64,000 nt of DNA from Streptomyces flavofungini (GTDB lineage: Bacteria; Actinomycetota; Actinomycetes; Streptomycetales; Streptomycetaceae), in assembly GCF_030388665.1 (NCBI RefSeq), contig NZ_CP128846.1, forward strand, positions 3,574,001-3,638,000. The letters are read 5' to 3'. A program made the translations under genes and the position numbers. Below the pieces are notes generated by a model. The model was not told the DNA's origin. It was given only the letters and a program-made list of their open reading frames with translations, and did not search any database. Below are positions 24,602-41,576 of this stretch, in pieces (position 1 is the first letter of the stretch; the number at the start of each line of letters is the position of its first letter).

Positions 24602-25877
24602 TGTCGGACGGGGCGCCCACCCGCACGGGCGGGCCCCAGGCTCCGGCGCCGCGCGTCACGTACAGCTGGGTGTCGCCGTAGCGCCCCAGGCCCGCGAGCG
24701 TCGGGTTGACGAGGTCGGCGATGAAGTTGTTGGGCCACAGCTGACCGCCGTGGGTGTGGCCGGACAGCTGGAGGTCCACGCCGTGCTCGACGGCGTCGTG
24801 GATGACGACGGGCTGGTGGGCCATGAGGACGGAGGTGCGGGAGCGGTCGCGGTCGCCGAGCGCCTTGCCGAAGTCGGGGCCCTCGCCCTCGCCCTCGCCC
24901 TGGATGTCGTTGACGCCCGCGAGGTCGAAGTACGGAAGCTCGGTGCGGGCGTTCTCCAGGGGGCGCAGGCCGAGTTCCCGGACGTGCTCGACCCACTGCT
25001 CGGCGCCGGAGAAGTACTCGTGGTTGCCGGTGACGAAGAACGCGCCGTGGCGGGCCCGCAGGTCGGCGAGGGGGCGGGCCGCGCTCGCCAGGTCCGCCAC
25101 GTCGCCGTCCACCAGGTCGCCGACGACGGCGATCAGGTCCGGCTGCGTGGAGTTGACCGTGTCGACCACCTTGCGCGCGAAGCCCTCGCCGAGGACGGGG
25201 CCCAGGTGGATGTCGCTCACCACCGCGATGCGGAAGCCGTGGGCGGCGCGGGGCAGCTTGGCCAGCGGGACGGTCACGCGCTTGATCCGCGGGCCTCGGA
25301 GGACGTTGTACGTGCCGTAGCCCACCGTCGCCGCCGCGATGGCCGCTGCGGTTCCTGTGACTGTGCGGGACACGAAGAGGCGCCGGGTCAGGTCCCCGGC
25401 GGGCTCGCCCCTTCGGGGGTCCGTCCGTGCCTTCTGCTGTGCCCCTTCGGGCTGATGGGGCTGCGCCCCTGTCCCCGCTTCATCGGCCCTTCGGGCCTCG
25501 TCCTCAAGCGCCGGACGGGCTGAATCGGCCTCCGGCTCCGGCACCGAAGGTGACCGTCTCTCCAGCCAGCGGTTCAGAAGCGGACGCACCGCCTCACCGA
25601 CCACCAGCGCAAGCAGCAGATACAGCGCGAACGCCATCCACAGGAAGCCCGGCCAGGCCAGGAGCTGCTGGAGGAGGAAGGGGGCGCCGCCGCGCTCGGC
25701 CGCGAGGGCGGCGAACATCAGGACCGGGCCCGTGAAGAAGAGGACCGTGCCCGCTCGGCGCCAGGCCGTGCGGGGGCGCGTCGTGTCGCGCACGACGCGG
25801 CGCCACACGTACCAGAGGAGGCCGCCGAAAGCGGCCATCACTCCTGCCCCGACGAGCACGCCCAGGAGGACGCCCAC
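24567..25877 (-). CDS. Membrane-anchored metallophosphoesterase
   Basis: The 436-residue protein has four N-terminal membrane segments (about residues 3-110), a variable linker, a twin-arginine-like TRRLFVSRTVTGTAAA segment with another helix, and a calcineurin-like phosphoesterase domain: IAVVSDIHLGP, VGDLVDGD, GNHEYFSGAEQW, AHQP and SGHTHGGQLWP, all the metal ligands. It probably cleaves phosphate esters outside the membrane. The linker is encoded by a copy of an intergenic repeat (25409-25525). GTG 25877 was chosen because the membrane segment starts there, 2 bases after the upstream stop. Confidence 0.88.
   Translation of the reverse strand: MGVLLGVLVGAGVMAAFGGLLWYVWRRVVRDTTRPRTAWRRAGTVLFFTGPVLMFAALAAERGGAPFLLQQLLAWPGFLWMAFALYLLLALVVGEAVRPLLNRWLERRSPSVPEPEADSARPALEDEARRADEAGTGAQPHQPEGAQQKARTDPRRGEPAGDLTRRLFVSRTVTGTAAAIAAATVGYGTYNVLRGPRIKRVTVPLAKLPRAAHGFRIAVVSDIHLGPVLGEGFARKVVDTVNSTQPDLIAVVGDLVDGDVADLASAARPLADLRARHGAFFVTGNHEYFSGAEQWVEHVRELGLRPLENARTELPYFDLAGVNDIQGEGEGEGPDFGKALGDRDRSRTSVLMAHQPVVIHDAVEHGVDLQLSGHTHGGQLWPNNFIADLVNPTLAGLGRYGDTQLYVTRGAGAWGPPVRVGAPSDITVVELASPRA
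25409..25525. repeat. Streptomyces-type intergenic element inside a coding sequence (copy 2)
   Basis: The segment contains CCCCTTCGGGG, GGGGCTGCGCCCC, GGCCCTTCGGGCC and ends TCCTCAAGCGCCGGACGGGCTGA. The last part matches, in the opposite orientation, the element at 32111-32153. It is read in frame as the linker of the phosphoesterase (PALEDEARRADEAGTG...). Confidence 0.75.
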
Positions 25878-32016: not shown

Positions 32017-32252
32017 CCCCTGGGGGCTCCGCCCCCAGACCCCCGTTTCCCACCCACCCGCCCAAACTGGACCGACAACAGCCAGTCGGCACTCCGGCCC
32101 ACACCCCGCCCTGCGCAGGCGTCTTCAGCCCGTCCGGCGCTTGAGGACGAGGCGCGAAGCGCCGATCCGAGGGCGGACCGTCCCACCCGAGGGGACCACC
32201 CACCCCCGGGGGCCCAGGGGCGGAGCCCCGGTTTCGGGAAGGGGCGGGATTG
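32017..32252. repeat. Composite intergenic repeat between dprE1 and dprE2 (copy 3)
   Basis: The 304-base gap holds no gene. CTGGGGGC-TCC-GCCCCCAG at 32021-32039 is a perfect 8-base hairpin just after the dprE1 stop. CAGCCCGTCCGGCGCTTGAG at about 32127 matches, inverted, the element in the phosphoesterase gene. An inverted GGGGCGGAGCCCC copy lies near 32217. Together they look like two or more nested intergenic elements. Confidence 0.7.
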
Positions 32253-40008: not shown

Positions 40009-40053
40009 GGCGTCCTCCGGGGCGAGCGGTGAGATGTCCGGTCGTGGTCCCGG

Positions 40054-40175
40054 GGTGCCGATGGGGTCTCCCCTGCTCGAGCGGAGCCGAGAGCTTGGGG
40101 AAGGGCGGCACCTCGAAGGGGGTTGCCTCGCACGGCTTCCTCAGGGTCGTTTCCCCGTGCGCCAGTCGCCGTGCT
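40054..40175 (-). ncRNA. Structured glyA leader RNA: candidate riboswitch (ZTP-like; class unresolved)
   Basis: On the minus strand GCACGGC (40174-40168) pairs perfectly with GCCGTGC (40136-40130). This stem encloses GACUGGCG (40167-40160), a GGG-GAAACGA-CCC hairpin and GAGGAA. Downstream are GGCAACC, GGUGCCG and CCGCC (40108-40104), which can pair with the GGCG. GACUGGCG, a P2 hairpin and a downstream CCGCC pseudoknot partner are features of ZTP (pfl) riboswitches, which are known before glyA in actinobacteria. GAAGCC, GGCAACC and GGUGCC also recall SAM riboswitch cores, so the class is not certain. The distal hairpin GGUGCCG/CGGCACC contains a 43-base repeat. Confidence 0.55.
40061..40103. 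repeat. 43-bp Streptomyces-type repeat inside the glyA leader
   Basis: GGGGTCTCCCCTGCTCGAGC and the following GGAGCCGAGAGCTTGGGGAA belong to a sequence type often seen between Streptomyces genes. It lies exactly between GGTGCCG (40054-40060) and CGGCACC (40106-40112), that is, in the loop of the leader RNA's last hairpin. Confidence 0.65.
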
Positions 40176-40373: not shown

Positions 40374-41576
40374 GTGACCGCTACGGAAGACCTCATCTCC
40401 TCGGCCGAAGCGCACAGCGCGCACAACTACCACCCGCTGCCTCTCGTGGTCGCCTCGGCGGAGGGCGCGTGGATGACGGACGTGGAGGGACGCCGCTATC
40501 TGGACATGCTCGCCGGGTACTCGGCGCTGAACTTCGGGCACGGCAACCGTCGTCTGATCGAGGCGGCCAAGGAGCAGTTGGAGCGGGTGACGCTGACGTC
40601 GCGGGCGTTCCACCACGACCGGTTCGCGGAGTTCTGCACGCGTCTGGCCGAGCTGTGCGGCAAGGACATGGTGCTGCCGATGAACACGGGCGCGGAGGCC
40701 GTGGAGACGGCGGTGAAGACGGCCCGGAAGTGGGGGTACCGAATCAAGGGGGTGCCGGACGGCCGGGCCAGGATCGTGGTGGCGAGCGACAACTTCCACG
40801 GCCGTACGACGACGATCGTCAGCTTCTCCACGGACCCGGAGGCACGCGCGGACTACGGCCCGTACACGCCGGGTTTCGACATCGTGCCGTACGGCGACCT
40901 GGACGCGCTGCGCGCGGCGGTCACCGACGACACGGTGGCGGTGCTCATCGAACCGATCCAGGGCGAGGCGGGGGTCCTGGTGCCGCCGCCCGGCTATCTC
41001 CCCGGAGTCAGGGAGCTGACCAGCGACTACAACATCCTGTTCATCGCGGACGAGATCCAGTCGGGGCTCGGCAGGACGGGCCGGACGTTCGCGTGCGACC
41101 ACGAGGGCGTGGTGCCGGACGTGTACGTGCTCGGCAAGGCGCTCGGCGGCGGCGTGGTGCCGGTGTCGGCGGTGGTGGCGGACGCGGACGTGCTCGGGGT
41201 GTTCCGGCCGGGTGAGCACGGGTCGACGTTCGGCGGGAATCCGCTGGCGTGCGCGGTGGCCCTGGAAGTCGTCGCGATGTTGAACACCGGCGAGTTCCAG
41301 CAGCGGGCCACGGAGCTCGGCGAGCATCTGCACGCCGAACTGCGGCTCCTGGTGGGCTCCGGCAAGGTCACGCAGGTGCGCGGGCGCGGACTGTGGGCGG
41401 GCGTCGACATCGACCCGGCGCACGGCACCGGCCGGGAGATCTCGGAGAAGCTGATGGACCGCGGGGTCCTGGTGAAGGACACCCACGGTTCGACGATCCG
41501 GATCGCGCCGCCGCTGGTGATCAGCAAGGAGGACCTGGACTGGGGGCTCGACCAGCTGCGGGCGGTGCTCGGGTAG
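40374..41576 (+). CDS. rocD: Ornithine-oxo-acid aminotransferase
   Basis: This 400-residue class III PLP aminotransferase matches ornithine aminotransferase: YHPLPLVVASAEGAWMTDVEGRRYLDMLAGYSALNFGHGN, MNTGAEAVETAVKTARKWGY, NFHGRTTTIVSFSTDP and the PLP lysine in YVLGKALGGGVVPVSAVVAD. It converts ornithine and 2-oxoglutarate to glutamate semialdehyde and glutamate in arginine/proline catabolism. GTG 40374 has GGAG upstream. It is followed by a bidirectional terminator. Confidence 0.95.
   Translation: MTATEDLISSAEAHSAHNYHPLPLVVASAEGAWMTDVEGRRYLDMLAGYSALNFGHGNRRLIEAAKEQLERVTLTSRAFHHDRFAEFCTRLAELCGKDMVLPMNTGAEAVETAVKTARKWGYRIKGVPDGRARIVVASDNFHGRTTTIVSFSTDPEARADYGPYTPGFDIVPYGDLDALRAAVTDDTVAVLIEPIQGEAGVLVPPPGYLPGVRELTSDYNILFIADEIQSGLGRTGRTFACDHEGVVPDVYVLGKALGGGVVPVSAVVADADVLGVFRPGEHGSTFGGNPLACAVALEVVAMLNTGEFQQRATELGEHLHAELRLLVGSGKVTQVRGRGLWAGVDIDPAHGTGREISEKLMDRGVLVKDTHGSTIRIAPPLVISKEDLDWGLDQLRAVLG

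Follow-up and report, generated by a model that had tools for sequence, protein, structure and literature searches.

The glyA locus and its leader

The window, by which we mean the whole stretch of 64,000 nucleotides that was analysed, carries on its minus strand an intact open reading frame for serine hydroxymethyltransferase (SHMT), whose product matches NF000586 with 547.4 bits against a cut-off of 335. The gene is thus glyA, as the original prediction, made from the sequence alone, had named it. A divergent gene at 40374 on the plus strand matches TIGR01885 (ornithine aminotransferase; 493.9 bits, cut-off 378.4). The same genome has several SHMT-like genes, among them a second SHMT, located elsewhere, that is 52% identical to the window glyA. 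Genes of the window type are present in 135 of 392 Streptomyces genomes at E <= 1e-190.

Upstream of glyA lies an element derived from a riboswitch, which occupies 40179-40054 of the minus strand as a whole (Table 1). The parts that had been pointed out beforehand, namely the GCACGGC/GCCGTGC stem, the GACTGGCG and the small hairpin that it encloses together with GAGGAA, and the distal GGTGCCG/CGGCACC hairpin, can all be read on this strand. The 43-base repeat said to occupy the loop of the distal hairpin is also there, and it occurs in multiple copies in the genome. By eye, TAGGCT at 40191-40186 (minus strand) may be the -10 element of the glyA promoter; a TAnnnT at the same distance 5' of P1 is likewise visible in many relatives.

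Table 1. Features of glyA and its leader in the window
Feature	Position	Strand	Basis
P1, 5' strand, GCACGGC	40168..40174	-	sequence read; helix covaries in relatives
P1, 3' strand, GCCGTGC, partner of GCACGGC	40130..40136	-	sequence, Rfam alignment, covariation
J1/2, GACTGGCG	40160..40167	-	sequence, Rfam alignment, covariation
GGCG of J1/2, which in intact relatives pairs with the P3 loop	40163-40160	-	Rfam alignment, covariation
P2 hairpin, GGGG...CCCT	40143..40156	-	Rfam alignment; helix covaries
P3, 5' strand, GGTGCCG, holding the start of CCGCC	40106..40112	-	sequence, covariation
43-nt palindromic repeat in the P3 loop	40061..40103	-	sequence; copies in genome and relatives
44 nt standing in place of S. 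alboflavus GCCTGG	40102-40059	-	leader comparison
P3, 3' strand, CGGCACC	40054..40060	-	sequence, covariation
Possible hairpin CCGGG (40053-40049)/CCCGG (40021-40017) beside the ribosome site	40017..40053	-	single folds, without RNAalifold support
glyA ribosome-binding site, GGAGG, 5' of ATG 40008	40014..40018	-	sequence
glyA, serine hydroxymethyltransferase, 430 aa	38716..40008	-	open reading frame; NF000586

Class of the riboswitch

At the curated threshold, Rfam matches no family anywhere in the window. With an open threshold, applied to 451 bases of the window, the leader matches ZMP-ZTP (RF01750) at 40179-40079 of the minus strand with 25.2 bits (E 0.036), below the cut-off of 39 bits, and the only other match at E <= 10 is a weak one to a snoRNA. 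Some likeness to SAM riboswitches had been suspected as well, but no SAM family appears at this limit, and we reject this class. The P1-J1/2-P2 module, with GACTGGCG and a 3' side of the GGGGA type, is recognizable in the Rfam alignment. The P3 stem of 7 bp is also present, its homologue covaries in relatives, and the order of the parts and the position before glyA, a one-carbon/purine gene, are those of the ZMP/ZTP riboswitch (pfl motif). What sets the window leader apart from RF01750, besides its score, is that the P3 loop is a repeat hairpin without the CGCC and the ligand-contacting U next to it.

The leaders of orthologous genes are more informative. Out of 14 loci put to Rfam, which were chosen and not drawn at random, five pass the ZTP cut-off (S. 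alboflavus, L042, 50.4 bits; L004, 49.4; L056, 48.9; L124, 48.2; L047, 45.9) and four stay below it with 30.1-37.5 bits (L024, L061, L065, L168). The other five, the window locus L001 together with L074, L008, L114 and L159, give no ZTP match at E <= 0.5 in this run. Across the genus RF01750 exceeds the cut-off in 300 of 392 genomes; the window genome has no such match.

For the comparative analysis we collected 214 leader loci of window-type glyA, up to 600 nt each, one of them from Wenjunlia and the other named ones from Streptomyces; the orthologue G178 was left out, as it comes without upstream sequence. They reduce to 191 distinct leaders if judged by the last 200 nt and to 184 if judged by the stretch around J1/2. 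Covariation was assessed on 54 diverse leaders taken from 148 intact aptamer stretches, from which three with long inserts (L014, L070, L200) were dropped to leave 51. In these 51, the ZTP fold with its pseudoknot has 97.6% of cells paired, against a mean of 92.0% after shuffling; 12 pairs are changed on both sides (shuffled mean 6.1), as are 57 cells (shuffled mean 13.2). Sliding the partners by 1-3 columns lowers pairing to 41.5-50.1%. The covariation falls in P1, P2 and P3, and the structure of the leader exceeds chance. Covariation among glyA leaders had been named in advance as a test, and it came out on the side of the ZTP class. The folding energy of the window leader, on the other hand, is not unusual (z 0.62), and we regard that test as uninformative about leader structure.

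Because orthologous leaders exceed the cut-off and P1, P2 and P3 covary, the glyA leader is, by all the sequence evidence above, a ZTP (pfl) riboswitch by descent, and the original prediction was right about the class in this sense. A sceptic may prefer a chance resemblance or some other class, such as SAM, given that the window match is below the cut-off and the stability of its fold is nothing unusual. We consider this next to impossible: the scores of five orthologous leaders among 14 and the covariation already refute it, and no SAM family turned up. The location was described before: a 2010 report places pfl RNAs upstream of glyA (PMC2864571). A 2026 paper models the covariation of entire ZTP riboswitches, expression platforms included (PMC13273304).

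What the insert removed

The nearest relative found is S. alboflavus, whose glyA is 97% identical and whose leader, with an intact loop, is nearly identical to that of the window apart from the insert. In a comparison of leaders with and without the insert, which had been suggested earlier, P3 of S. alboflavus has the sequence GGTGCCGCCC-GCCTGG-GCACC and that of the window GGTGCCGCCC-[44 nt]-GCACC, a net gain of 38 nt between nearly identical flanks. Nearly all of the 44-nt replacement is the 43-nt palindromic repeat, and what is lost from the P3 loop is CGCC and the following U.

These bases are conserved in relatives. A GCCTGGG stands 3' of J1/2 in 187 of the 191 distinct leaders, counted without selection, and in 180 of 184 by the other distinctness rule; within the covariation set its invariance is circular, as the selection pattern demanded GCCTGGG. 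The four of 191 that lack it are L001 (window), L061, L065 and L074. In the ZTP switch of T. carboxydivorans, binding depends on a pseudoknot between J1/2 and the P3 loop, a U of this loop is in contact with ZMP, and expression is switched on when the ligand binds (PMC7337938). GCCTGGG is the part of the P3 loop to which both the pseudoknot strand and the ligand contact belong. The damage thus hits the aptamer, in its pseudoknot strand and its ligand-contacting U. The earlier suggestion of an expression platform altered or broken by the repeat holds as far as breakage is concerned, but the damage is not limited to the platform, since the P3 loop of the aptamer itself is hit.

We therefore think it probable, at roughly 0.85, that the window RNA no longer senses ZTP or ZMP and that the sensor is dead. 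It could be argued that the aptamer still works in altered form, with CCGCC in the 5' strand of P3 standing in for the lost CGCC and the repeat tolerated as an extension of the loop. Indeed P1, J1/2 and P2 are intact, and a CGCC at 40107-40104 could pair with GGCG, a pairing that the original prediction had proposed. But this CCGCC sits in the P3 5' strand and its use would cost two P3 pairs, whereas the partner in relatives is the CGCC that was lost. Further, a C follows the CGCC of the window where relatives have the U, and a loop U is needed in the published structure (PMC7337938). Given also how widely GCCTGGG is kept, a working aptamer seems to us very improbable.

Consequence for glyA expression

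If the sensor is dead, two outcomes are conceivable for glyA. The repeat would form a hairpin of its own on the 7-bp P3, and P3 would for this reason be closed without ligand, just as the ligand would hold it. In a switch of the ON type the ribosome site should therefore be left open, and glyA would be expressed constitutively. In our opinion a leader locked ON in this manner is a serious candidate, with a little less than an even chance. Alternatively, the switch may be broken OFF: with the pseudoknot gone, no ligand could ever hold P3, the ribosome site would remain masked, and glyA would be silent or weakly expressed while the other SHMT carries the load. This we consider a weaker though still substantial contender.

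The folding models, which are without pseudoknot, ligand or cotranscription, speak for both. Folded ligand-free from P3 to the start codon, the window leader has a P3 probability of 0.93-0.94 and the last GG of its Shine-Dalgarno sequence (SD) unpaired at 0.67-0.68, and S. longispororuber, which has the same repeat, is very similar (0.94-0.95 and 0.66-0.67). L061 is intermediate (P3 0.61-0.62, SD openness 0.44-0.45). Streptomyces sp. MZ04 (L065), again with the same repeat, is predicted closed, with P3 at 0.0 in the whole-leader fold and SD at 0.03-0.04 in the P3-to-start fold. The 144 intact segments have a median P3 of 0.01 and a median SD openness of 0.14 for the last GG; P3 reaches 0.9 in 1% of them and SD 0.6 in 11%, and in most intact leaders the P3 5' strand is paired with the ribosome site in the ligand-free fold. 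(This set skips, by its pattern, 17 leaders including those with inserts, and drops segments that are longer than 140 nt or repeated; P3 is the mean of 5 pairs in it, while for the individually folded leaders the values cover 6 pairs.) By these models the insert would mimic the bound form clearly in two of four insert leaders, partly in one and not in one.

When the whole aptamer and 30 nt of coding sequence are folded, the window leader has P3 at about 0.30 and a closed SD, and in the intact S. alboflavus leader P3 stands at 0.45 and the SD is partly open (0.16, 0.41), which is the opposite of what a locked-ON leader would give. Even without ligand, the intact leader L003 is predicted to be open (P3 about 0.91, SD 0.91-0.92). 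Moreover, part of the P3-closing effect is generic, since shuffled inserts that keep the CG end reach a P3 of 0.93 in 16.5% of 200 cases, with a mean of 0.40. In the P3-to-start alignment RNAalifold supports P3 and, close to the SD, a local pairing of 2 bp, but nothing else; the downstream CCGGG/CCCGG hairpin, which appears in single folds, was accordingly not accepted as proven.

For the broken-OFF outcome one can thus cite the closed whole-leader fold, the closed prediction for L065 and the presence of the second SHMT. In E. coli, a mutation in the pseudoknot region also left the pfl switch of C. beijerinckii broken OFF and not ON (PMC10085676); that switch is transcriptional, however, and the mode of the glyA leader may differ. 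Against it are the open sites predicted by the P3-to-start folds of the window, of S. longispororuber and partly of L061, and the fact that glyA remains an intact open reading frame.

The repeat family

The repeat is genuine and present in at least 10 genomic copies. A 25-nt core finds 10 matches in its own genome with at most two mismatches, against 0 for a reversed-pattern control, and there is a further partial match of 27 nt with three mismatches. Within the 64-kb window it does not form a family: the copy in the glyA leader is the single one, and it is not among the repeats detected there. As a short palindrome in many copies, some of them intergenic and some apparently in coding sequence, it resembles REP-type repeats (REP/BIME/MITE) in general form. 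At four other sites compared with empty alleles the net gain is about 39 nt with a few target bases replaced, and no target duplication was seen by eye. The words Streptomyces and Actinobacteria are absent from the main texts of two REP papers (PMC8266576, PMC3733652), and our literature search, for which subscription journals were mostly out of reach, found no case of a repeat inside a riboswitch loop.

BLAST with a query holding the repeat gives 24 to 43 matches per genome in four relatives, not all of which are the repeat, and copies were picked out of these lists. Many of them sit in a longer repeat, with GGGCTGTGCCCACCC before them. In L249-L255 and others GGGCTGTGCCCACCC precedes and CGCCCTGCGG follows, which gives the impression that a palindromic repeat was inserted into a second one.

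A search for P3 plus repeat with up to three mismatches has matches in 137 of 392 genomes; among the matches listed, zero mismatches are seen only at glyA of the window genome and of G213. Twenty other loci were fetched and 13 inspected, and 12 of these 13 have no CTGGCG within 110 nt upstream. The one that does, L324, looks by eye like a site of the L215 type and not like a ZTP leader.

Patchy filling of a repeat site is not unique to glyA. The site L219, one of the four compared above, is filled in the window genome and in G329 and empty in S. alboflavus, S. flavofungini and S. lasiicapitis, and two further genomes (L314, L326) are apparently filled there. L219, together with L244, L314 and L326, shows a site that carries the repeat in some genomes while close relatives lack it. 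In the window itself, 25482-25534 and 32114-32166 form a 53-nt inverted pair, 89% complementary, which looks like another dispersed palindromic repeat family.

The same repeat in other glyA leaders

Among the 214 leaders the repeat core occurs only in L001, in L065 and in L074/L123 (S. longispororuber and G213, whose glyA genes are identical), each time at the same spot and in the same orientation. L061 (Streptomyces sp. A3M-1-3) has a different hairpin at this very spot of the P3 loop. Each of the three has close relatives with an intact loop: L042 for L001, L124 for L065, and L056 (NRRL B-1347)/L126 for L074. On a tree of 60 glyA genes at least 88.4% identical to that of the window, plus L061, with identical sequences merged, the repeat requires three changes, or four with L061. 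The AU test rejects a clade of L001, L065 and L123 (p 6.6e-6) and one of L065 and L123 (p 7.9e-7).

Separate insertions are thus possible. The rival view, that one insertion allele moved between species by very short gene conversion, is in our opinion nearly as likely to be true as false. All three glyA copies have the variant GGCTCCGC, which 12 of 69 further copies examined also show, and the three leaders have lost the same bases. On the other hand, the differences in the leader flanks follow species, so that the converted tract would have to be very short, and another site of the repeat is patchily filled as well.

One may speculate further that palindromic repeats keep landing in this P3 loop in Streptomyces, and that they turn a ligand-dependent ON switch permanently ON by providing a loop that folds on its own and so imitates the bound state. 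We consider this combined proposal unlikely, but if it is true, one repeat family rewires one metabolic gene again and again. Near-identical leaders with and without the repeat in the ligand loop are natural matched pairs, in which the loss of a riboswitch and the life of the cell afterwards can be tested against a clear prediction on expression. Recurrence at one loop in separate lineages also raises the question of whether short palindromic repeats have preferred targets in Streptomyces. Finally, covariance searches can miss riboswitches that carry mobile inserts, as the window genome, which scores as one without a ZTP riboswitch, illustrates.

Some further leaders deserve a mention. By eye, L008, L024, L114, L159 and L168 each contain a P3-like element twice, with an interruption or truncation in the first copy and the second copy intact; an event of this type with a subsequent duplication may be the cause. 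L047, L004 and L018 have an intact P3 and behind it another P3-like stretch, which contains either an insert or a long complementary hairpin.
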